Of a DNA stretch of 63,219 nucleotides, positions 5,833-61,092 are shown in pieces. The notes under the pieces are model-generated. The model made no database searches and was not told the DNA's origin. It saw nothing but the letters and a program-made list of their open reading frames with translations. The first letter of the stretch is position 1. Each line of letters opens with the position of its first letter. The position numbers and the translations under genes were made by a program. The stretch is from the NCBI GenBank assembly GCA_902786345.1, contig CADACB010000016.1:1-63219 (forward strand). Reading direction: 5' to 3'. Source of the stretch: an uncultured Ruminococcus sp. (GTDB lineage: Bacteria > Bacillota > Clostridia > Oscillospirales > Acutalibacteraceae).

Positions 5833-7890
5833 ATGAAACAGTACAGTGCAAAAAACATTTTTAATATTGCTCTTGCAGGTCATAGTGGTTCCGGTAAAAC
5901 CTCGCTGGCAGAAGCAATGCTTTATCTTGCCGGTGGTTCTGACCGTCTGGGAAAGGTAAGTGACGGAAATACAGTTTGTGATTTCGACCCTGAGGAAATA
6001 AAACGCAAGACCTCTGTTCAGGCGTGTGTTGCTCCTGTTGAATGGAAGGGCAAAAAAATTAATGTTATAGACGCTCCGGGTTTGTTTGATTTTGAGGGCG
6101 GCTTGTATGAGGCTGCAAGAGCTGCTGACACAATGCTGGTAACGGTATCAGGCAAGGATGGAGTTTGTGTAGGTACGGAAAAGGCTGTTAAGGCAGCAAA
6201 TAAAAGAGGTCTGACAAAAGTCTTTTTTGTAAACGGTTTGTGTGATGAAAGCGCAAGATTCTATCGTGTATTTGAAAATCTGAAGTCCTTCTTTGGTCCT
6301 TCAGTATGCCCTGTTGTAGTACCTTATATAGTGGACGGTCAGGCAGACTGTTATGTAAATCTTCTTGAATATAAAGCTTACAAATATATAAACGGAAAAA
6401 TCAACACTGTTCCGCTGCCGGATATGGGTGACAGGCTTGAGGGTCTGAGAACTGCCATATGTGAGGCTGTTGCGGAAACCAGCGACGAAATGTTTGAAAA
6501 GTATTTCTCGGGTGAGGAGTTTACTCCTGAGGAAATTATAGTAGGTGTAAGTAAGGGCGTAAAGGACGGTACAATAAGTCCGGTTTTCTGTGGTGATGCA
6601 CTTCTGACATATGGTATTGAACAGCTTCTTAACGGCCTTATATGGCTTGCTCCGTGTGCCGAGGACAAATCGGCTGAGTTTGCAGTTGATACTGAGGGCA
6701 ACCCGGTAGAGCTTAATGTAAAGGATGATGCAATGTCGGCAGCAATTGTGTTCAAAACAATTGCCGATCCGTTTGTAGGAAAGCTTTCATACTTTAAGGT
6801 TATTTCAGGTAAGGTTTCTCCTGATACTCCTCTTGTAAATATGAGAACAGGAAACTCTGAGCGTGTAACAAAGGTTATGACTATCAAGGGTAAAAAGCTT
6901 GATGATGCTGCATATATTGGCGCAGGCGATATTGGTGCTGTTGCAAAGCTCTCGGGTACAAATACAGGAGATACACTTTGCGCACCTGCAAGAAAGATCA
7001 TACTTGACGGTATAGATTATCCTGCACCGTCACTTACAATGGCAATTGCACCCAAGACAAAGGGCGACGAGGAAAAGGTTGCACAGGGTGTTATGAAGCT
7101 TTGTGAGGAAGATCCGACTATTAAGTTTGAGACTAACCACGAAACACATCAGATGATTATCAGTGGAATGGGAGAGCAGCATCTTGATGTTGTTTTATCG
7201 AAGCTCAAGTCCAAATTTGGTGTAGATGTTGTGCTTTCCAAGCCGAAGGTTGCATATCGTGAAACAATCAAGAAATCTGTGAAGGTACAGGGCAGATATA
7301 AGAAGCAGACCGGAGGTCACGGACAGTTTGGTGATGTATGGATTGAATTTTCCCCCTGTGACAGTGAAGATATGATTTTTGAAGAAAAGGTTGTGGGCGG
7401 TGCAGTTCCTAAGGGCTTTTTCCCTGCGGTTGAAAAGGGTCTGCGTGACAGCATTGCAAAAGGACCGCTTGCAGGCTATCCTGTTGTCGGCTTAAAGGCG
7501 ACTCTTTATGATGGATCATATCATCCGGTAGATTCGTCCGAAATGTCATTTAAAACAGCAGCATCGCTTGCCTATAAGGCAGGAATGCCTGACGCTTCAC
7601 CTGTGCTTCTTGAGCCGGTAGGACTTCTCAAGGCTACTGTACCGGATTCAAATATGGGTGATGTTATGGGCGAGGTTACCAAGCGCAGAGGACGTGTTCT
7701 TGGTATGAATCCGTCTGAGGAACGTATGCAGACGATTGAAGCTGAAGTTCCACAGGCTGAAATGAGCGATTTCTCAACCTTTATACGTCAGTCAACACAG
7801 GGCAGAGGATATTTTACCTTTGAATTTGTACGCTATGAAGAAGCACCCTCTAATGTTGCACAAAAGGTTATTGAAGATAATGCAAACTGA
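5833..7890 (+). CDS. EF-G-like translation factor GTPase (divergent paralogue)
   Basis: A 685-residue protein with the full EF-G domain order: GTPase, beta-barrel domain II, and domains III-V (RYKKQTGGHGQFGDVWIE is typical of domain IV). The GTPase motifs depart from true EF-G. The P-loop GHSGSGKTS (16-24) is intact, but the switch II motif reads DAPGLFD (80-86) rather than DTPGHVD, so the catalytic histidine is replaced by leucine. The NKxD guanine motif is replaced by NGLCD (134-138). It therefore belongs to the EF-G-like paralogue group rather than being the main FusA. AAGGAGG lies 11 bases before the ATG at 5833 and 8 before an adjacent TTG at 5830; either could start it. It is a single-gene transcript. 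Its role in translation is unproven. Confidence 0.88.
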   Translation: MKQYSAKNIFNIALAGHSGSGKTSLAEAMLYLAGGSDRLGKVSDGNTVCDFDPEEIKRKTSVQACVAPVEWKGKKINVIDAPGLFDFEGGLYEAARAADTMLVTVSGKDGVCVGTEKAVKAANKRGLTKVFFVNGLCDESARFYRVFENLKSFFGPSVCPVVVPYIVDGQADCYVNLLEYKAYKYINGKINTVPLPDMGDRLEGLRTAICEAVAETSDEMFEKYFSGEEFTPEEIIVGVSKGVKDGTISPVFCGDALLTYGIEQLLNGLIWLAPCAEDKSAEFAVDTEGNPVELNVKDDAMSAAIVFKTIADPFVGKLSYFKVISGKVSPDTPLVNMRTGNSERVTKVMTIKGKKLDDAAYIGAGDIGAVAKLSGTNTGDTLCAPARKIILDGIDYPAPSLTMAIAPKTKGDEEKVAQGVMKLCEEDPTIKFETNHETHQMIISGMGEQHLDVVLSKLKSKFGVDVVLSKPKVAYRETIKKSVKVQGRYKKQTGGHGQFGDVWIEFSPCDSEDMIFEEKVVGGAVPKGFFPAVEKGLRDSIAKGPLAGYPVVGLKATLYDGSYHPVDSSEMSFKTAASLAYKAGMPDASPVLLEPVGLLKATVPDSNMGDVMGEVTKRRGRVLGMNPSEERMQTIEAEVPQAEMSDFSTFIRQSTQGRGYFTFEFVRYEEAPSNVAQKVIEDNAN

Positions 7891-7935
7891 TACCGTTTCC
7901 TTTTAAAACAGTAGATAAAAATATAAACAAAATAA

Positions 7936-8094
7936 TTATATGATAACAAAATATTCCCAAAAGACGGATGCAGGGACAGCATTGTTGCCGAGGTCAATGG
8001 GAGATATTTGACGACCCAAGAAGCGGAACTGAGGGCGAACGCTGATTGGCTGTCGAAAGTTATGCGAAATGAAATGGAGCTGAAGCTCTTGTGA
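7936..8094 (+). pseudogene. Decayed coding fragment, dispersed family copy A
   Basis: In the gap after the EF-G-like gene a 53-codon stretch is open but has no start codon. It reads like real protein (TTQEAELRANADWLSKVMRN) and ends at TGA 8092. The part at about 8014-8086 matches the minus strand at 40838-40911 in DNA and protein (ANxDWLxxVxRN shared). Two decayed copies in separate intergenic gaps suggest remnants of a repeated gene or element. The family is not recognised. Confidence 0.45.
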
Positions 8095-8167
8095 GATGTC
8101 GGGGCAAAACCCTGATTATATCTATTGTTTAAAGTAATAACAGTATGACAGTAAAATATATGTAATA

Positions 8168-8209
8168 AAAAGCAGGTACGTTTCTGTAATAAAGAAACAT
8201 ACCTGCTTT
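8168..8209 (-). terminator. Terminator of ABC transporter operon
   Basis: Near-perfect stem AAAGCAGGTACGTTTCT with AGAAACATACCTGCTTT. On the minus strand it is followed by a T run, so it mainly ends the ABC operon; it may also stop leftward-facing traffic from the EF-G-like gene. Confidence 0.8.
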
Positions 8210-8252
8210 GAATTTCTTTGAAATGTTTTCTTCTAACAATGATATGTACAGT

Positions 8253-9074
8253 TCAGGATGTCTGTTGGCGACGGAAGACGATAAGACCTGTCGCTGAACA
8301 GATTATGAAATAGAATGCGGCAACAAGAAGGGGAATATAGGCTTCGCCGTTAAGACACATACTTTCGGTAGTAACAAAGGTTCTGAATAACCAAAGTCTT
8401 GAGATTCTTCCGAAATCGTGATTTGACATAGTTATGATGCCAAGTGCTGATTCAATAAGAATAGGAAATATGATTGATACCGCAATGGCGTGACCTGTTT
8501 TTTTCATTATCACAGAGATCATCATATAAAAGGAGGTTGCAGCCAGGAACAGGCAGAAATATGCAAGCAGAACCAAGAATATTTTTGTTTTGCCTGTGTC
8601 AGTAGTAAACCCGAACATAATAACGCTGGCGAGTGAGCCGCCGAATACATATGCAGCAACAACGGACAGCATTGATACTGCCGATACGATAAGCTTTGAA
8701 AAGTATACCTGAACTCTTGAAAAGCCTCTTGAAAGAGAATTTCTTATTGTTCCCATAGAATATTCCGATGCTGTAAACACACCGATAACAACCGCACCAA
8801 TATATAACACATTGGTGTCGCTCAGGCAAGCATTGGCATATTCAAACATATTTGGTTCGGGAAATTGTGCGAGTGCTTCCTCGAAGGTTTCTTTTTCTAC
8901 ACCCATCTGATCCATAAGTGCCTGTGTAGCTTGCAGACTTGAACCTATATTTATCCAGACAGTATAATAAAGTGCAGCCATAACTATTCCAAGTAAAAAA
9001 GCAAGTACAATACATACCCAGAATGTGCTGCTTTTCTTTTGCTTTATGAAATCGGATCTTAACAGATTACCCAT
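8253..9074 (-). CDS. ABC-2 type transporter permease
   Basis: A 273-residue membrane protein with six hydrophobic segments (first at about 19-41) and a large extracytoplasmic loop after the first one, the plan of ABC-2 permeases of the bacitracin/lantibiotic-immunity kind. The GGAGG ribosome site lies inside the end of the upstream ATPase gene, leaving only a few bases between them, so the two are translated together. Together they form an exporter or immunity-type transporter. The substrate cannot be deduced. Confidence 0.85.
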   Translation of the reverse strand: MGNLLRSDFIKQKKSSTFWVCIVLAFLLGIVMAALYYTVWINIGSSLQATQALMDQMGVEKETFEEALAQFPEPNMFEYANACLSDTNVLYIGAVVIGVFTASEYSMGTIRNSLSRGFSRVQVYFSKLIVSAVSMLSVVAAYVFGGSLASVIMFGFTTDTGKTKIFLVLLAYFCLFLAATSFYMMISVIMKKTGHAIAVSIIFPILIESALGIITMSNHDFGRISRLWLFRTFVTTESMCLNGEAYIPLLVAAFYFIICSATGLIVFRRQQTS

Positions 9075-9077
9075 ATA

Positions 9078-9968
9078 TCATTCCTCCATTCTTTTGATAA
9101 AGTAGTCTTCTGCACTGCTTTCGTCTGTGCTTATGCCCTTTATGGTTATTCCGGCATTAAACAGCTTATGAGTCAATTCACCAATATCGGATATCTCGGC
9201 TTTGATTATAATACTTCTGCTGCCCATTGACAGTTCATCCTCTTTGAACGAGCCTTTCAGTATTTCCAGTGTTTTTTGCGGATCAGATGTTTTGATGACA
9301 GTTCTTATGCCGCATTTTTGGGCAAGCTCCTCACAGGATATTTGTTCTATAAGCTTTCCTGATGATATAATTCCGTAGTTTGTTGCTATCTTTTCAAGTT
9401 CACCAAGAATATGACTGGAAATGAATATGGTTTTTCCCTGACTTTGAAGCGTCAGCAGCAACGATCTTATTTCAACGATACCCTTTGGGTCAAGTCCGTT
9501 AATAGGTTCGTCAAGTATGAGAAAATCAGGATTGCCAACAAGAGCCATTGCAATTCCAAGACGCTGCTTCATACCTAGTGAGAAATTGACAGCTTTCTTT
9601 TTTCCTGTATTGGCAAGACCGACTGTTTCCAATATTCCGTCAATAGATTTTTTGTCGGCTCCCAGCATGGTGCAGTAAAGGTTAAGGTTATCTTTTGCAC
9701 TCATATTTTTATATAATGCAGGTGATTCCACAAGACTGCCGACACGTTTTCTTGCGTTTTCGGCTGATTCTCCGTCAAAAAAACTGAAGCTGCCCGAAGT
9801 TACGCTTGTAAGCCCCAGAAGCATACGTATAAATGTAGTTTTTCCTGCACCGTTCTTTCCTACAAAGCCGTATATGTCACCTTGTTTTACGGTCAGAGAT
9901 ACGTTGTCTACTACTTTGGTATGCGAATATTCCTTTGTAAGTTCTTTCGTTTCAAGAATATAAGACAT
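9078..9968 (-). CDS. ABC transporter ATP-binding protein
   Basis: The 296-residue nucleotide-binding subunit for the adjacent permease. It shows Walker A GKNGAGKTT (about 37-45), Q-loop, signature NFSLGMKQR (about 130), Walker B FLILDEP with the catalytic glutamate, and the H-loop (SSH). The C-terminal 80 residues form the extension seen in the BcrA/lantibiotic-immunity ATPases. GGAGGAAT precedes the ATG at a good distance. First gene of a two-gene minus-strand operon ending at the terminator at 8168-8209. Confidence 0.92.
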   Translation of the reverse strand: MSYILETKELTKEYSHTKVVDNVSLTVKQGDIYGFVGKNGAGKTTFIRMLLGLTSVTSGSFSFFDGESAENARKRVGSLVESPALYKNMSAKDNLNLYCTMLGADKKSIDGILETVGLANTGKKKAVNFSLGMKQRLGIAMALVGNPDFLILDEPINGLDPKGIVEIRSLLLTLQSQGKTIFISSHILGELEKIATNYGIISSGKLIEQISCEELAQKCGIRTVIKTSDPQKTLEILKGSFKEDELSMGSRSIIIKAEISDIGELTHKLFNAGITIKGISTDESSAEDYFIKRMEE

Positions 9969-52817: not shown

Positions 52818-55196
52818 TCAGTCCTCTCGTTTTTTCCTGCCCAGTATAAATGCTACAGAAGCTGCTGCTGCCGCTGTTATAATAAATGCTGCAACAGGTG
52901 TGCTGTCTGAGGTATTTACCTGGTTGCTCTGCTGAGAAGTACCCGAGCCATTATTATTTGTCTGAGAAGCGTCAGGCATTACAATAGTCTGGCTGTCTTG
53001 CTTGTCGGATGAATCATCATTGCCGGTGTCAGTGCTTGTATCTTTGGCTGTGTCCTTACTTGTGTCCTTGCTTGTGTTGTCGCTTGTATCATTACTTGTG
53101 TCCTTGCTTGTGTCATCACTGGTATCATTGCTTGTGTCCTTGCTTGTGTCGTCGCTTGTGTCCTTACTTGTGTCCTTGCTGGTATCATCACTTGTATCAG
53201 TATCAACAACCGGCTCGGGCTCTGTGCTTCCGGGAAGATCTAGCCATGTTGTGCCATCATACAGCTTTTTGTCTGAATAAGCCATTGTCAGACCATCCTG
53301 CATTGCGCCGGGAATCTGGTCGCCGCTGCCGTTATTGAAGATAACCATTATATGATTACAGCTTGCAAACTGCTCCGGAAGCTCATATGAATAGTAGTTA
53401 TTGCCGCAATCCTGCATTTTAACACCCGGCCAGCTGCCGTTTGTAATAGTTTCAGCACCGCTTTCGTCATAAACATATACATTCACAGTTGTCCAGCCTG
53501 TTTTTGTGTTATCAAGTACAACTCCGCCGCCGTTAAGCTGAGGATATTCTCTGCTGAGTTTCTTATTGTATTTATAGGTTGAGCTTATCTTATCACCGTC
53601 AGCATTTGTACCATAGAGCGTCAGTGTGACTGTTGTATCGGGATCAGCCTGTGAACCTATTGTAATAACATCGCCGTCTGAGAAAGTACCGTCAAGGAGT
53701 GCTCCGTTTTCTCCAAGAAGCTCAACTGTATATGATGTATCTGTTACATCAACAGCGTGAAGAGTTACATCTATTGAGTCTGTAAAATCTGTATCTGTAT
53801 CAGGCTCTGCGTAAACCTTGCTGACAAAATCGGAATCATAAATAACTGCAATACCGCTTTCACCAACTTTGCCTGTTATTGTTGTTTCTGTAACAACAAA
53901 GGTATTGCCTGTTACCTCATCCTTATATGTTCCGGGAACTGCATATTTGCCGCCGTTTTCTACACTTACCTCGCCGCTGCCTTCACCGCATACGATCACA
54001 GCGCCGCCGTTTTGACGTGTGATAACTGCGCAGTTATCAGAAACGGTATAGTTATCTGCCTTGCCGACCATTGCATTGTGGAAGTGGTTAACTGCTGCAA
54101 TTTCAGGGCTTGTAAAGTGCATACTGCCCTTAACGCCTATTCTTATGCTGTCTCTGGCTTTTGCAAAGGGACGTGAAAGATAGAGTGCTGAGGCGTCGCT
54201 TCTTGCTGCTGCAACAGCATAAGCACGGTCAACTATATTCTGTTCCACATTGTTAGAGCCGGCGCCTTCTTTATTAGAATAAGTATCGTGACTTTCGCCC
54301 CAATATACAAGCTTATCTGATGCTACGCCTTTTTCGGACCAGTTACCTGTTTTATCGGGTGCTTTTCCTCTTGCGAATGAAGACAGCATAGAATCACAGT
54401 AAGAACTGTCTGTTACAGACATAAAATCTGTATATTCCTTCATAAGATCATTGCCGCCGTTGTCTGTAGGACCTTTAAGAATCTCGCCGTAATTATAAAG
54501 TCCGGAGTTTGTAACAGCTGGCCAGAAGCCGCAGTCTTCACTGGGAAGTGCTATATGCTTTGCGGCATCCCAACGAATACCGTCAACACCCAGTTCTTTA
54601 AGATCATTAACATATCCTGCAACCACCTGTTGAACATATTCGTTTTCTGAATTGATGTCTGTCATTCCAATATCACCGTGAGTTACCTGATGACGATTGC
54701 TATAGCTTTTTACGGCGCCTTCATTGTGCCAGTATTCATCAGCCTGAAGATCAGACTGGATATTATCGTGATTGCCTGCAAGATGATTTGCAACAACGTC
54801 CACAATTACCTTTATACCGTATTCATCAGCAGCCTCACAAAGTGCCTTAAGCTGATCGGGCGTTCCGAGATCATTTTCTCCTGCGGTGAATGAAACCGGC
54901 TGATAAAGCCAGTACCATGCGCCTGTACCCTCACTTGGTTGTGCAGGTGAGGTTTGTATAGAAGTAAAACCTGCTTTTGCTATGTTTTCAAGCTCTGCCT
55001 GAATATCAGTATACTTCCAGTCAAAGCAATGAAGAATTGTTCCGTCCTGTATATTTTCTACAAGACCATATTTTTCCTGTGATGAGTTGTTGGTTGCAGA
55101 TACAACTGCTCCCATTCCGGCAAAAGCTGTTACCGCAAGCGCTGCTGTCAAAGACAGACACAGAGCCTTTTTGCGAACAGACTTTTTCTTCTCCAT
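52818..55196 (-). CDS. Cell-surface alpha-amylase (GH13) with starch-binding module
   Basis: Hydrolyses alpha-1,4-glucan bonds of starch outside the cell. 792 residues: signal peptide (1-35), GH13 barrel (about 40-460) with DVVANH (133-138), nucleophile D210 in GIRWDAAKH, acid/base E238 in YGEIL and D304 in ESHD, as in B. subtilis AmyE. A beta domain follows, then a CBM26-like module (about 545-655; WTTVNVYVYDESG, NGSWPGVKM). Next is a 70-residue D/T/S/K repeat linker (DTSKDTSDDTSKDTSNDTSD) and a membrane-spanning end with RKKRED. The anchor lacks a clear LPxTG but has VNTSDSTP where a sortase motif would be, so membrane retention is likely. Confidence 0.93.
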   Translation of the reverse strand: MEKKKSVRKKALCLSLTAALAVTAFAGMGAVVSATNNSSQEKYGLVENIQDGTILHCFDWKYTDIQAELENIAKAGFTSIQTSPAQPSEGTGAWYWLYQPVSFTAGENDLGTPDQLKALCEAADEYGIKVIVDVVANHLAGNHDNIQSDLQADEYWHNEGAVKSYSNRHQVTHGDIGMTDINSENEYVQQVVAGYVNDLKELGVDGIRWDAAKHIALPSEDCGFWPAVTNSGLYNYGEILKGPTDNGGNDLMKEYTDFMSVTDSSYCDSMLSSFARGKAPDKTGNWSEKGVASDKLVYWGESHDTYSNKEGAGSNNVEQNIVDRAYAVAAARSDASALYLSRPFAKARDSIRIGVKGSMHFTSPEIAAVNHFHNAMVGKADNYTVSDNCAVITRQNGGAVIVCGEGSGEVSVENGGKYAVPGTYKDEVTGNTFVVTETTITGKVGESGIAVIYDSDFVSKVYAEPDTDTDFTDSIDVTLHAVDVTDTSYTVELLGENGALLDGTFSDGDVITIGSQADPDTTVTLTLYGTNADGDKISSTYKYNKKLSREYPQLNGGGVVLDNTKTGWTTVNVYVYDESGAETITNGSWPGVKMQDCGNNYYSYELPEQFASCNHIMVIFNNGSGDQIPGAMQDGLTMAYSDKKLYDGTTWLDLPGSTEPEPVVDTDTSDDTSKDTSKDTSDDTSKDTSNDTSDDTSKDTSNDTSDNTSKDTSKDTAKDTSTDTGNDDSSDKQDSQTIVMPDASQTNNNGSGTSQQSNQVNTSDSTPVAAFIITAAAAASVAFILGRKKRED
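53010..53200 (-). repeat. Low-complexity linker repeat in amylase
   Basis: About twenty imperfect 12-base units encode (D-T-S-K/D/N). Such linkers separate enzyme from anchor and are prone to length change. Confidence 0.85.
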
Positions 55197-55234
55197 TTTA
55201 AATCACACTCCAAAAAAATAATTTACGTTTTTGT

Positions 55235-55265
55235 CCGGCATCCTGTTGTCATAACAGGATGCCGG
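55235..55265 (-). promoter_or_regulatory. 5'-terminal stem-loop of amylase mRNA
   Basis: A 13-bp perfect stem, CCGGCATCCTGTT with AACAGGATGCCGG, starts within a few bases of the predicted transcription start and ends about 40 bases before the start codon. Its position suits mRNA stabilisation or control. Confidence 0.6.
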
Positions 55266-55277
55266 ATATACATTTTT

Positions 55278-55306
55278 ATTCTACCATTTTTATCAGCATT
55301 TTGCAA
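55278..55306 (-). promoter_or_regulatory. Promoter of amylase gene
   Basis: Minus strand: TTGCAA (55301-55306), 17-base spacer, TAGAAT (55278-55283). Confidence 0.65.
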
Positions 55307-55601
55307 AGAATTTTTAATCTGCTTATTTATACGTAAAGTGCAAAACAATATAATGTTCACAAAAAAATCAAATAAGCCGGATATAAATAACAAATTCAAG
55401 CGGAACAATTTATTTATTTTTACTGATTATTTTTTTGTTTTTATAATTACTTATATATTTTTAATCTTTTTTTGTTGTTTTTCACAATTTTATAGATCGT
55501 GTTATTTCAAAAATAAGTCAGCCGAAAATGACAACTCCTTATACTTAACATAGCTGTTTGTCACGCACCTATGTCAGTACAGATACCATTTCGCTGTTGT
55601 T
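55307..55601. other. AT-rich intergenic gap
   Basis: About 295 bases between the amylase promoter and the dockerin gene's end. ACATAG and CTATGT near 55551 and 55569 could form a weak hairpin; no gene seen. Confidence 0.5.
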
Positions 55602-57086
55602 TTATAATGAAAGGCTATATTTTTGAATCTGATATACATCAAGAATATCAAGTCTTCCGTCACCATTGAAATCTGCTGCTGTTTTTTCTAACGACTCAAA
55701 TCCCTTATTACTTTGCAAATAATCTGCCAGCGCTCTCAAATCAAGAGTATTGATATTTCCTTCTCCGGTAAGATCACCTTTTACACAGGTATAATATATA
55801 AATTTCTGATTGCCATAATAAACTTCTATCGTCCAGCCTGTTCCTATTTTTCCGCTTCCGGCAGGTTTACCGCTATGGTTAGTTATAACAAGTCTTCCTT
55901 CTCCATAAGATAAATTTTTCTTGAGCTTGGAAACAGTTGTACCGCAAGGCACATTGATAATATCTTTATATATCTCATAGCAAGTGCTTTTTAAGCCCTT
56001 GCCCGAAGCATTGTAACTGTTATTAAGAATCTCGACATTATAATTTACTATAGCACTATTACTCTGCTGTAAATCCTGTAGGTTCTCATTCGAGCTATAG
56101 TTTGATTTCTTTTCTTCGCTTTTTTGACTTTTATCATTGTTATTGATCGAATCATCATTCTTTTGTACGGATTTCACTTTCTTTTCATCTACAGATGAAT
56201 CATATGTAAAATTATCAGGCGTTAAAACATCAACTCCACTGTCAGATACAACGGCAATATAGGACTTACTCGCATAAACATCATAAGCGTTTTTACTGAG
56301 ATCATATTTTCCGATTTCTTTTCCGTCAAAATTCATCATATAAACCCTATTGTCAGACAAACAGACAATTCCGCTGTCTGTAGTACACACAGCAGATGAC
56401 GCCAAAGACAATATTTTTTTAAATCCCTCAGCAGAACTAAACGTATAAATACATCCGTTTCTGTCAGAATAATAACCGCTGTTTGACTTAAGAGGATAAG
56501 CCGGTACATCGCATTTTATAAAGCTGCCGTCTTCAGCATTATATATTCCGTCAGATAACGCTGCATATGGTGTGCCGCTTTCAATGTCAGTAAAAAGATA
56601 ATTGATTTTTCCGGGAGTCTTTATCGCATCAACTTCATAATCAGCAGTCAAGAATCTTCTTATAACATTGTCAGCACCCGTTTCTGCAAGATATATATTC
56701 AGATCATTAGTCATAGCTATACAATTATCTTTAAGCTTAACATTTTCAATGTAATAAACGTTATTTCTTCCGTCATCAAATTTAAACAAGGTAAGTGTTT
56801 CATTTTTATTTTCTACTGCTACAGAGACATTGCCGGATGTTAAAATAAAATCCGTTCTGAAATTATTCAGATAATTTTCTCTTGCATCTGCTTTTCCATT
56901 ATAGCTTGTGATTATACAGCAGTCGCCCTGATTTTCAAATTTATAGAATCTACCATCAGCTGTCGGCACAATAGATATTTTTAAAGATTCACCTATACCA
57001 ATTATACTGACCGAGAAGGAAGTAAAGAGTGTCAAGGCTATTATTAACAAATAAGCTATCTTTAAAATGTTTTTTGTTGATCTCAT
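55602..57086 (-). CDS. Exported protein with C-terminal type I dockerin
   Basis: 494 residues. An N-terminal signal or anchor (about 9-32) is followed by about 270 residues of beta-rich repeats (tyrosine- and glycine-containing, possibly a propeller, e.g. TDSGIVCLSDNRVYMMNFDG), a charged N/S/K linker (about 295-345), an unknown beta domain (SYNASGKGLKSTCYEIYK...), and a dockerin at about 435-494 with two calcium-binding repeats (GDLTGEGNINTLDLRALADY; ADFNGDGRLDILDVYQIQKY). Dockerins plug into cohesins of cellulosome- or amylosome-like complexes. No catalytic domain is recognised; it may be a binding or sensing component. No cohesin gene is in this window. Confidence 0.8.
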   Translation of the reverse strand: MRSTKNILKIAYLLIIALTLFTSFSVSIIGIGESLKISIVPTADGRFYKFENQGDCCIITSYNGKADARENYLNNFRTDFILTSGNVSVAVENKNETLTLFKFDDGRNNVYYIENVKLKDNCIAMTNDLNIYLAETGADNVIRRFLTADYEVDAIKTPGKINYLFTDIESGTPYAALSDGIYNAEDGSFIKCDVPAYPLKSNSGYYSDRNGCIYTFSSAEGFKKILSLASSAVCTTDSGIVCLSDNRVYMMNFDGKEIGKYDLSKNAYDVYASKSYIAVVSDSGVDVLTPDNFTYDSSVDEKKVKSVQKNDDSINNNDKSQKSEEKKSNYSSNENLQDLQQSNSAIVNYNVEILNNSYNASGKGLKSTCYEIYKDIINVPCGTTVSKLKKNLSYGEGRLVITNHSGKPAGSGKIGTGWTIEVYYGNQKFIYYTCVKGDLTGEGNINTLDLRALADYLQSNKGFESLEKTAADFNGDGRLDILDVYQIQKYSLSL

Positions 57087-58152: not shown

Positions 58153-58168
58153 TGATGTTGAAATCAGA

Positions 58169-58222
58169 ATATAGCTTGGTAAAAACCAAAACAGCTTATT
58201 TCCTGCTCCGGGCAAGCTATAT
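58169..58222 (+). promoter_or_regulatory. Leader inverted repeat upstream of fusion lipoprotein
   Basis: ATATAGCTTG (58169-58178) and CAAGCTATAT (58213-58222) pair perfectly across 34 bases that include TGGT/ACCA. It lies within the 5' leader, ending 42 bases before the start codon. No T run follows, so it is not a plain terminator. Confidence 0.5.
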
Positions 58223-58264
58223 CGGATTTCAGATAATAATAGAATCAACGAGGAGAATCAAACA

Positions 58265-59986
58265 ATGTCAAAAAAAGCAACAAGATGGATAGCTGTTTTG
58301 CTTGCATCAATGCTGTTATCGCTTACCGCATGCAACGGACAGAATGTACAAAGTTCTCAGACTGCCGATAACACAGCAGATACAAGCACAGCCGCAGTAT
58401 CACAGGACAAGGAAACTATTTATCAGGTGGCGCTTTTGCAGTCCCTGACGCAGGGCTACTATGACGGTATCATTAAAGTCAGTGAGTTGAAGGAGCATGG
58501 CAACACCGGAATAGGAACCTTTGAGGGAGTAAACGGCGAGATGATCGTCATTGACGGCAAGGTCTATCAGGCACTAAGCGACGGCTCCGTAAAGGAGGCT
58601 GCTGATGATGAAACTGTCCCCTTCTCCAATGTCACATTCTTTGAAAGTGATGTTGCCGCCGATATGACAGACATCAGCGATATGGCATCCTTCAAGTCTG
58701 CACTTGACAAGACGGTCAATGAAAAAGGTAGGAATATGTTCTATATGGTCAAGGTTAGCGGAACATTTGAAAAAATGTATGTCCGCAGCGAGCTGAAGCA
58801 GGAGAAGCCCTACAAATCACTTGATAAGGCTCTTGAAACAGACCAGAGAGAATTCAGCTATGAAAACATCGCCGGAACTGTCGTAGGCTTGTACTGCCCG
58901 GATTATATGGGAGGACTGAATGCGGTAGGATGGCATTTCCATTTCATTTCTGATGACAGGACAAAGGGCGGACATATTCTGGAGCTTAGTTTCAAAAATG
59001 CAAAGGCTGAGTTGGATATTACACCAAGCTTTGATATGAAGCTTTCTGATAATACTGATTTCCAGAACATGGAGCTTGCGAAAAATGTTGATGACGCTAT
59101 CAAAAAGGTTGAAACCGAAACAAAGACGAATGACAGTAAAACAGACAGCAGCACTGCTCTGAAAATAGCAGACGATGCTGTTGTTAGCTATCTCGGTCCC
59201 GCGGGAACATATACCGAAGAGGCTGCAAAACATTTCTTCAAGGACACGAATAGCTTTATTCCTAAAAAGACCGTGGATGAGGCTATTGAGGAGGTCAAAA
59301 GCGGTCAGGCGGATTATGCAGTTATTCCGCAGGAAAATACGATTGGCGGTGCGGTAACAAATTATGTAGATGCGTTGATCAGAGAGACAGATATTTATGT
59401 TGTCGGCGAGGTTATTATTCCCATCAACCAGACGCTTATGGGCATTGAAGGCACATCACTGAGCGATATAAAGACCGTTTGCTCCCATGCACAGGGTCTT
59501 GCACAAAGTAAGACATGGCGCTCGGAAAATCTTCCCGATGCCGCCGAAAAGGAAATGGACAGCACGGCCGCGGCGGCAAGCTTTGTAGCAGAAAGTAAAG
59601 ATAAAACAATAGCGGCAGTAGCAGCACCCGGAGCCGCACCGCTTTATGGATTGACAGTGCTTGCCGAAAATGTACAGATCAGTGACGCCAACAAAACCAG
59701 ATTCTATGTTCTTTCCAAAACAAGGAATGAAAGCGGAAAGCGTACTGTGTTTATCGCAAACTGCGAAGCGAGTGAGATCGATGATATTATCGTTGATGCT
59801 CATAGTGCAGGCTTTGAAACGATTACGCTCCATGATCGTCCCGATGGTACAAAGCTCGGGTCATACAATTACTTGCTTGAGACGGAAGCAGAAAATATCA
59901 GCAATGATATGATTGCAAAAATAACCGCTCACAGTGGTGTAAGATTTGCAGGATGTTTTGATATGTCCGAAAAAACGAATAATTAA
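58265..59986 (+). CDS. Exported lipoprotein: acetolactate decarboxylase-prephenate dehydratase fusion
   Basis: 573 residues. A lipoprotein signal ends at LTAC (C23), followed by a low-complexity linker. Residues about 50-265 match alpha-acetolactate decarboxylase (acetolactate to acetoin): GTFEGVNGEM, R174, and zinc ligands H224, H226 and H237 in WHFHFISDDRTKGGH with the family's HxH-10-H spacing. After a charged linker, residues about 306-485 match prephenate dehydratase (prephenate to phenylpyruvate): YLGPAGTYTEEAA, PQENTIGGAV and the catalytic TRF at 478-480. Residues 493-565 form an ACT domain, but the usual ESRP phenylalanine-binding motif reads HDRP, so feedback control may differ. Both enzymes are normally cytoplasmic; here they would be outside the membrane. 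GAGGAG ribosome site. Bases are richer in GC than the housekeeping part. Confidence 0.85.
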   Translation: MSKKATRWIAVLLASMLLSLTACNGQNVQSSQTADNTADTSTAAVSQDKETIYQVALLQSLTQGYYDGIIKVSELKEHGNTGIGTFEGVNGEMIVIDGKVYQALSDGSVKEAADDETVPFSNVTFFESDVAADMTDISDMASFKSALDKTVNEKGRNMFYMVKVSGTFEKMYVRSELKQEKPYKSLDKALETDQREFSYENIAGTVVGLYCPDYMGGLNAVGWHFHFISDDRTKGGHILELSFKNAKAELDITPSFDMKLSDNTDFQNMELAKNVDDAIKKVETETKTNDSKTDSSTALKIADDAVVSYLGPAGTYTEEAAKHFFKDTNSFIPKKTVDEAIEEVKSGQADYAVIPQENTIGGAVTNYVDALIRETDIYVVGEVIIPINQTLMGIEGTSLSDIKTVCSHAQGLAQSKTWRSENLPDAAEKEMDSTAAAASFVAESKDKTIAAVAAPGAAPLYGLTVLAENVQISDANKTRFYVLSKTRNESGKRTVFIANCEASEIDDIIVDAHSAGFETITLHDRPDGTKLGSYNYLLETEAENISNDMIAKITAHSGVRFAGCFDMSEKTNN

Positions 59987-60017: not shown

Positions 60018-60632
60018 ATGAAAAAAAGAATTGTCGCAATTATTGCGGCAGCAGTTATGATGCTTTCCGCCGCAGCGTGCAGCACAACAAACGGACAGAG
60101 CAGTACAGCAAGCGAGGCATCTGTTGCTTCAACAGCGTCTGAAAGCAGCAAGGAAACCCAAAGCAGCGACCAGCAGGCTTCACAGCCTGAAAAAGCTACT
60201 TTGATCGAAAATTGGAATGAAGATTCCCCTGCTATGAAGTCGATCATGACATTCGTTGAAGAAGTAACGGACGAGAAGTCCGATAAGTTTGTTCCTGCCG
60301 AAAAGAGAATAGCTGTGTTTGATTCTGACGGTACCTTGTACGGCGAGCTTTTCCCGACATACGTCGATCAGTGCCTGATGATTCATCGTCTGGTTCACGA
60401 TGATACCTACGAGGGCAACGCCGAGGACGCTGCTTACTGCAAAGCACTGGAGGAATACCTTATCAATGGCGGTGAAAAACCGAAGGCTCCCCGTTCATCA
60501 GGTGACATTATCGCAGATGCTTTCAAGGGCGTGACTGTTGAAGAGTACCGTGCGTATGTACGAAAACGGCAGAGCGTAAAAAATACTGAAAGACTATGCC
60601 GACAAAAAGATACAAGTCCTTTGTGCCTGTGA
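60018..60632 (+). pseudogene. Truncated HAD-family phosphatase lipoprotein
   Basis: ATG 60018 (GAGGAGG ten bases upstream) opens a lipoprotein signal (MKKRIVAIIAAAVMMLSAAAC), a serine-rich linker and the first half of a HAD phosphatase, with motif I AVFDSDGTLYGE near residue 98 and a cap region up to EYRAYVRK (about 185). The frame then continues 20 residues in unrelated sequence (RQSVKNTERL) and stops. HAD motifs II-IV are missing, so it should be inactive. The break coincides with the start of the helicase fragment at about 60570. It lies 31 bases after the fusion lipoprotein and was probably co-transcribed. Confidence 0.8.
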
Positions 60633-61092
60633 CTTGCTCAATGAGGGCTGGGACAGTCCTATAACAGAAGTCTTGTTTATGGCAAGACCTACAATGTCAA
60701 AGACAATCTATATGCAGCAGTTGGGCAGAGTAATGAGAACACATCAAGGCAAAGATTTTCTGATGGTATTTGACTTCGTGGATAATGCAAATATGTTCAA
60801 CTGTCCGTATTCACTTCACCGTATGCTTAACTTGGCAGAATATTTACCGGGCGGTCTGGTGCTTGGAACAAAACACGGTATTGCTTGGGACAATGATATG
60901 TTCCGCAAAGGCGAAAAGCCTGCTGTATTGGTCGAATATCCTATTCACGCATTGGATTATGAGGTAGTCGATATTTTTAATTGGCAGGACAGAGCTAATC
61001 AAATGTATTCTGAAATGGAGCTTACCCGCCGTGTTTCTGCATAAGAGGAAACCATCAGCAGTTACATAAAAGAGGGAAAGATTGTTCCTGAT
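60580..61092 (+). pseudogene. Fragment of DEAD/type III restriction-like helicase
   Basis: From the junction near 60577 the frame reads like the end of a superfamily 2 helicase: LCACDLLNEGWDSPITEVLF (motif V region) and MQQLGRVMRTHQGKD (motif VI with QxxGRxxR). There is no start and no N-terminal half. After residue about 155 a TAA (61042-61044) interrupts, yet the same frame goes on EETISSYIKEGKIVPD, as intact relatives do, pointing to a point mutation. Beyond 61092 similarity is lost. It is a non-functional remnant, possibly from a restriction or defence locus. Confidence 0.8.

Follow-up and report, generated by a model that had tools for sequence, protein, structure and literature searches.

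A putative exported lipoprotein that joins acetolactate decarboxylase to prephenate dehydratase in an uncultured Ruminococcus

Why would a bacterium place acetolactate decarboxylase (ALDC) and prephenate dehydratase (PDT), two enzymes of unrelated pathways, in a single polypeptide behind a lipoprotein signal? The question is raised by contig CADACB010000016.1 of an uncultured Ruminococcus sp. (assembly GCA_902786345.1), of which a stretch of 63,219 nucleotides, here called the window, was analyzed. A preliminary description of this DNA had reported one 573-residue frame with a lipoprotein signal, the HxH-x10-H site of ALDC and a PDT with its TRF motif, and profile scores, alignments and motifs confirm it. 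The frame and the adjoining features are as follows.

58251..58255, plus strand: AGGAG, a likely ribosome binding site read from the sequence.
58265..59986, plus strand: ALDC-PDT open reading frame, ATG start, 573 amino acids in a single frame.
58265..58333, plus strand: predicted lipoprotein signal peptide, residues 1–23 (MSKKATRWIAVLLASMLLSLTAC), with lipobox LTAC and Cys23, from the sequence and a custom lipobox pattern.
58334..58411, plus strand: tether rich in Ser, Thr and Gln, residues 24–49, from the sequence (selection is lax over residues 1–50).
58418..59080, plus strand: ALDC domain PF03306, residues 52–272 (259 bits in the genome search).
58934..58975, plus strand: zinc site H224-x-H226-x10-H237, aligned with 4bt2 chain positions 194, 196 and 207.
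59123..59179, plus strand: interdomain linker, residues 287–305 (dN/dS 0.41–0.55 for residues 287–303).
59183..59722, plus strand: PDT catalytic domain PF00800, residues 307–486.
59696..59704, plus strand: TRF motif, residues 478–480.
59729..59977, plus strand: ACT-like domain, residues 489–571, with motif HDRP, from alignment to 4lub, which a lone exported relative matches too.
60018..60632, plus strand: HADb, a shortened gene for a HAD-type phosphatase lipoprotein, 94% identical to HADb of locus L009; by DNA comparison its match to relatives stops near 60565.

Upstream of the fusion, positions 52818–57086 encode a CBM26 alpha-amylase and a dockerin-bearing protein. An inverted repeat at ∼58160–58233, partly kept in relatives, was considered as a leader RNA. 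This reading was dropped because the repeat is found just once in the genome, reached no Rfam gathering score and is only slightly better folded than shuffled sequences (z −1.47).

The ALDC half scored 256.1 bits with PF03306 (Pfam cut-off 25) and 222.6 bits with TIGR01252, over the equivalog cut-off of 180.65. Its closest solved structure was 4bt2 (160.6 bits), which we take to be the ALDC of Brevibacillus brevis, an exoenzyme. Positions 65, 145, 194, 196, 207 and 253 of 4bt2, presumably the catalytic and zinc residues (the zinc histidines, Glu65, Arg145 and Glu253), aligned with E92, R174, H224, H226, H237 and E283 of the fusion, and all six were invariant in a 14-row alignment. By family, this half is predicted to convert acetolactate to acetoin and CO2.

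The PDT half scored 187.6 bits with PF00800 (Pfam cut-off 25.2) and 189 bits with NF008865, under the equivalog cut-off of 219; the closest solved structure was 4lub (112 bits). It retains QENT, SHxQGxxQ and TRF. The motifs EN[ST], SHxQ...Q and TRF, assumed here to be the core motifs of PDT, were present in 12 of 12 exported PDT rows, and also in L112, L169 and L178. A PDT of this family would convert prephenate to phenylpyruvate, water and CO2. The ACT domain named in the preliminary description is present in diverged form: it had no Pfam match in a search that returned four matches up to E 1 for the protein, and the matches to 4lub and NF008865 extend across the ACT region as far as residue 544. 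Its motif is HDRP instead of ESRP, which we take to be the usual Phe-binding motif of PDT ACT domains. HDRP was found in 15 exported PDT rows (the same 12 of 12, and L112, L169 and L178) vs. none of 14 cytosolic PDT rows. The cytosolic rows differ among themselves at this motif (ESRP, RSRP, ESHA, ESRA and KSRA), so that HDRP does not exclude membership of the PDT family. The changed motif suggests, weakly since cytosolic relatives also vary here, that the PDT half may not be under phenylalanine control.

A search for the same two-domain architecture, as the preliminary description had proposed, found 573-residue ALDC-PDT frames at three more loci in two other genomes: L007 and L008 (MAG UBA1244) and L009 (RUG11404), with 96, 91 and 91% identity to the window, respectively. 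The two copies in UBA1244 have diverged, and this MAG may be a mixed bin; the tally, with the window, is therefore three genomes and four loci; DNA divergence among the fused loci reached ∼12%. The RUG genomes are presumably rumen genomes, and records of the relatives (goat omasum, sheep reticulum and red deer) point to a rumen setting. When the window was compared with L009 (88% DNA identity, dS ∼0.62 in the enzymes), dN/dS was 0.043 for ALDC, 0.044 for the PDT core and 0.10 for the ACT region, vs. 0.41 for the linker and 0.63 for the signal and tether. Over five informative pairs the enzyme dN/dS was 0.028–0.128; L008 and L009 are too similar for such a ratio (1.04 for ALDC, from one synonymous and four other changes). 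Purifying selection is strong on both enzymes and lax on the linker. Taken with the bit scores and the full-length frame at the other loci, these ratios exclude chance.

It is therefore extremely improbable that the fusion is an artefact, whether through misassembly of a chimera or because a cytoplasmic protein happens to have a signal-like N-terminus, although a suspicious join lies a little downstream, near 60565. The identical frame architecture at the other loci and the low enzyme dN/dS (0.03–0.13) rule out an assembly chimera, and lone relatives bear signals. The preliminary description had asked whether the domains are separate genes in relatives and fused only by assembly error: most relatives do have them apart or with other partners, yet the fused frame did not arise by misassembly. 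HADb adjoins the fusion downstream in the window and at L007, L008 and L009, and a full-length HADb relative matches PF12710 (Pfam). Within 60018–61044 of the window, the HADb match to relatives ends near 60565 and is followed by a short frame (60634–61044) with a weak RadD-like helicase match; the break is either a genuine rearrangement or an assembly join.

Signals and motifs were then compared across relatives in 12 exported PDT rows (without L026 and L112), 25 own-family exported ALDC rows, five Selenomonadales ALDCs and, as cytosolic PDT rows, 14 of the 18 loci L005 and L034–L050; the start of L060 was set by hand. By sequence the fusion protein has the traits of a lipoprotein (a charged n-region, a hydrophobic stretch and a lipobox ending in Cys). 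The lipobox pattern, a custom one and not SignalP, was present in 11 of 12 exported PDT rows, and the twelfth, a pyrophosphatase-PDT, has a hydrophobic N-terminal stretch. It was also present in two additional exported PDTs with whole N-termini, in all 25 own-family exported ALDC rows and in three further ALDC rows, one of them the L072 gene already among the earlier rows. None of the five Selenomonadales ALDCs, which resemble proteins with ordinary signal peptides, carried the pattern, nor did any of the 14 cytosolic PDTs or the five cytosolic-type ALDCs. The fusion protein is thus probably exported and catalytically active, as far as signal, motifs and active-site residues can predict. The preliminary description had regarded both activities as known cytoplasmic steps. 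As worded, this goes too far: relatives and Selenomonadales have signal-bearing ALDCs, and an exported dehydratase (PheC) and exported chorismate mutase-dehydratase fusions have been published (PMC10520331, in its available text).

How widely are these exported parts distributed? Within the genus, 28 of 64 genomes matched the fusion at E 1e-40 or better. ALDC-PDT was found in three of the 28 (own genome, G300 and G328). ALDC joined to a phosphatase, HADa, was found in 14, with some of the frames interrupted by contig ends. A lone PDT lipoprotein was present in three (G301, G314 and G340), and PDT joined to a membrane-anchored DHH/DHHA2 pyrophosphatase (Pfam) in one (G313). Three genomes had a lone or cut exported ALDC (G318, G323 and G330), one (G341) had a lone ALDC and a lone PDT, both whole and on separate contigs, and three (G306, G339 and G353) had only a remnant or cytosolic-type ALDC. 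G328 and G354, the latter with ALDC-HADa, encode a lone exported ALDC in addition to the fusion.

In a family draw of 300 genomes, 187 matched at E 1e-20, mainly via cytosolic PDTs; among the matches listed, full-length ALDC-PDT was found in the own genome only, and exported PDTs in G079, G036 (N-terminus cut), G158, G091 (two copies) and G228. Two wider draws, of 394 order-level and 398 phylum-level genomes, yielded at E 1e-50 no match with ALDC-PDT other than the own genome. A class-wide spread of exported PDT was rejected, since the own genome alone reached E 1e-60 in a draw of 391 genomes, although own-family members were few in that draw. None of 173 matching plasmid records covered 80% of the query, and spread of the whole fusion by plasmids was rejected on this ground. 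Plasmids pSRC1 and pSRC2 of Selenomonas ruminantium TAM6421, a member of a different class, encode signal-bearing ALDCs, and on pSRC2 the ALDC lies ∼3.6 kb from a signal-bearing HAD protein 43% identical to HADa.

Several single loci were noted for their arrangement of these parts. L014 (1059–2666) encodes a lipoprotein uniting a VanY-type carboxypeptidase with ALDC, and L061 (1498–3495) a membrane-anchored Mn-type pyrophosphatase (DHH, DHHA2) and an exported PDT in one protein. An MTA/SAH nucleosidase (L100, 9083–9898) and a cysteine-desulfurase-like protein (L081, 9375–10811), both as lipoproteins, are encoded near exported ALDC and PDT genes. A signal-bearing ALDC at L122 (1081–2235) has a long N-terminal extension that, by eye, resembles the copper amine oxidase N domain. 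At L179 of G091 (6544–9807), a protein of 1087 aa is encoded 68 bases upstream of the second exported PDT; it has HADb as its C-terminal domain and a stretch that by eye resembles a dockerin.

In the ALDC tree, whose root was weak (77/54) and in which L033 was poorly cut, the four fused rows formed one clade (97/94) among ALDC-HADa rows. In the PDT tree, a 100/100 branch separated the exported PDTs from ten cytosolic PDTs, and the fused rows formed a clade of their own (97/99), nested among lone PDTs and the pyrophosphatase-PDT. A recent duplication of the organism's own cytosolic PDT was rejected, because the exported PDTs form a separate clade. G314 encodes, in order, the end of HADa, a PDT lipoprotein and an HADb lipoprotein, spaced 62 and 15 bases apart; in the window ALDC-PDT is followed by HADb after 31 bases. 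From these orders we infer that an ancestral ALDC-HADa lipoprotein may have lost HADa in-frame as ALDC became joined to the neighbouring exported PDT gene. The simplest course would also have taken an in-frame loss of the PDT signal, with HADb remaining as the next gene.

The separate history of the exported PDT clade, the altered ACT motif and the NF008865 score under the cut-off would also fit a protein in which both folds were kept for other substrates, e.g., other beta-keto-alpha-hydroxy acids or cyclohexadienyl compounds. We consider this unlikely, as the core catalytic motifs are retained and the ALDC half is over the TIGR01252 equivalog cut-off. For the predicted substrates, acetolactate and prephenate, the genome itself was informative. 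Contig C5 encodes a separate cytosolic chorismate mutase-PDT (377-aa frame), and two acetolactate synthases scored over the cut-off; the exported copies are thus not needed for synthesis. The sole chorismate mutase (PF01817) match in the genome is the domain within that cytosolic PDT frame, so that an exported chorismate mutase was rejected for this genome and prephenate would have to arrive ready made. The second exported ALDC of the genome, at L002 (contig C31, 1272–2493), is frame-broken and followed by a short cytosolic-type ALDC frame; for this reason the organism may have no intact ALDC other than the fusion. Searches of the own genome for an exported pyrophosphatase gave no DHHA2 match, and for an exported nucleosidase three PF01048 genes, all without a lipobox.

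Whether the protein is a surface lipoprotein that holds both enzymes outside the membrane, with metabolites from leakage or lysis as substrates, is by our estimate evenly balanced. In this arrangement, one lipid anchor would display two independent enzymes on the outside of the membrane. Overflow, or the lysis of gut microbes, would release acetolactate and prephenate from a cytoplasm, and outside the cell these would be converted to acetoin and phenylpyruvate, which could be taken up or shared. One signal would serve both tethered enzymes, and the two reactions would need no linkage. No pathway link between the ALDC and PDT reactions was found, and the reactions are not obligately paired, since some genomes have one exported part alone, e.g., G340 (98% complete), with an exported PDT and no exported ALDC. 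Counting ALDC-HADa fusions, HAD genes of this type were present at 24 of 42 exported-enzyme loci vs. none of 37 control stretches. Scavenging is the role that we favour, tentatively and at a little less than an even chance, because the exported phosphatases, like the pyrophosphatase and the MTA/SAH nucleosidase of single relatives, also act on normally intracellular metabolites.

The main rival is a sensor of lysis or of neighbours, in which the exported enzymes would make or remove a ligand whose extracellular receptor signals to partner switching (SpoIIE-type phosphatase, HATPase and STAS proteins). SpoIIE-like, HATPase or STAS genes were found in 9 of 32 exported-enzyme loci vs. 1 of 37 control stretches (Fisher 0.004; 0.009 without L075, chosen after its STAS gene was known) and, in a recount with 42 distinct own-family loci and the same controls, in 13 of 42 vs. 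1 of 37 (Fisher 0.0009), but these p-values are optimistic, because some of these loci had suggested the idea and the pooled set served to build the profiles, and stretch lengths differ between loci and controls. STAS genes were also present in 3 of 18 exported-ALDC loci outside the family (two Selenomonas plasmids and one further genome), and signalling has been proposed by the authors of the published exported fusions (PMC10520331, available text). However, the link from ligand to receptor is conjectural, and the 63-kb window has no SpoIIE-like, HATPase or STAS gene; we consider a sensor unlikely. At L031 (2217–3701), a SpoIIE-like phosphatase with HATPase is encoded directly upstream of a cytosolic-type ALDC.

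Both reactions are decarboxylations. By using up a proton in each, a surface enzyme might buffer its surroundings and confer acid tolerance, and pH control has been proposed for an archaeal ALDC (PMC4836417, available text). An enzyme outside the membrane, however, would change the pH of the cell only slightly and would probably meet little substrate there, and exported phosphatases and a pyrophosphatase do not fit; acid tolerance is thus very unlikely.

Beyond the scavenging favoured here, a broader and speculative reading, which we think improbable, is that Ruminococcaceae and Selenomonadales of the gut share an extracellular metabolite-processing system, in which modules are swapped behind one membrane anchor and the spilled metabolites of lysed cells are handled and reported via SpoIIE/STAS partner switching. 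Both groups would contribute exported ALDC and HAD phosphatases, and Ruminococcaceae also exported PDT; single relatives would add the pyrophosphatase, the methylthioadenosine nucleosidase and the cysteine-desulfurase-like protein. ALDC-PDT would be one product of this system.

Cellulolytic ruminococci need phenylacetate and phenylpropionate, and extracellular phenylpyruvate may bear on these needs. The reason for exporting biosynthetic enzymes of this kind can be tested outside Proteobacteria, as the named strain S. ruminantium TAM6421 has a signal-bearing ALDC and a signal-bearing HADa relative, both encoded on a plasmid.

The preliminary description knew of no similar system, and no ALDC-PDT protein was found in the literature searched, which included few subscription papers. 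Among partial likenesses, 4bt2 has the six active-site positions in common with the fusion and is without a PDT domain. 4lub, a monofunctional-type PDT, is the best solved match for a lone exported PDT as well; its ACT domain has ESRP, and it has no ALDC. ALDC-HADa, VanY-ALDC and pyrophosphatase-PDT have the same exported parts with another partner domain. Exported fusions of chorismate mutase and cyclohexadienyl dehydratase (CMCDT and CDTCM) were published in 2023, and the available text of that paper calls the export of amino-acid biosynthesis enzymes an enigma and reports that the exported PheC of Pseudomonas aeruginosa is not feedback regulated (PMC10520331). Like PheC, the PDT half would be an exported dehydratase, with missing feedback control a guess from the ACT motif; unlike PheC, it is of another dehydratase type and has ALDC attached.

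ALDC-PDT resembles CMCDT and CDTCM, as described in the same text, in being a rare, apparently exported two-enzyme fusion with a prephenate-to-phenylpyruvate step, in a genome that also keeps a cytosolic PDT, and in the enigma of its purpose. In contrast, CMCDT and CDTCM are Proteobacterial and join a PheC-type dehydratase to its pathway neighbour, chorismate mutase, whereas ALDC-PDT is a predicted Bacillota lipoprotein whose PDT is of the PF00800 type, keeps an ACT remnant and is fused to an enzyme from an unrelated pathway; neither a chorismate mutase domain nor the PheC-type solute-binding family was among its four Pfam matches up to E 1. ALDC-PDT is a Bacillota counterpart of the published puzzle of exported-enzyme fusions, with a different enzyme pair, a partner that can be exchanged and a phosphatase that recurs as its neighbour.
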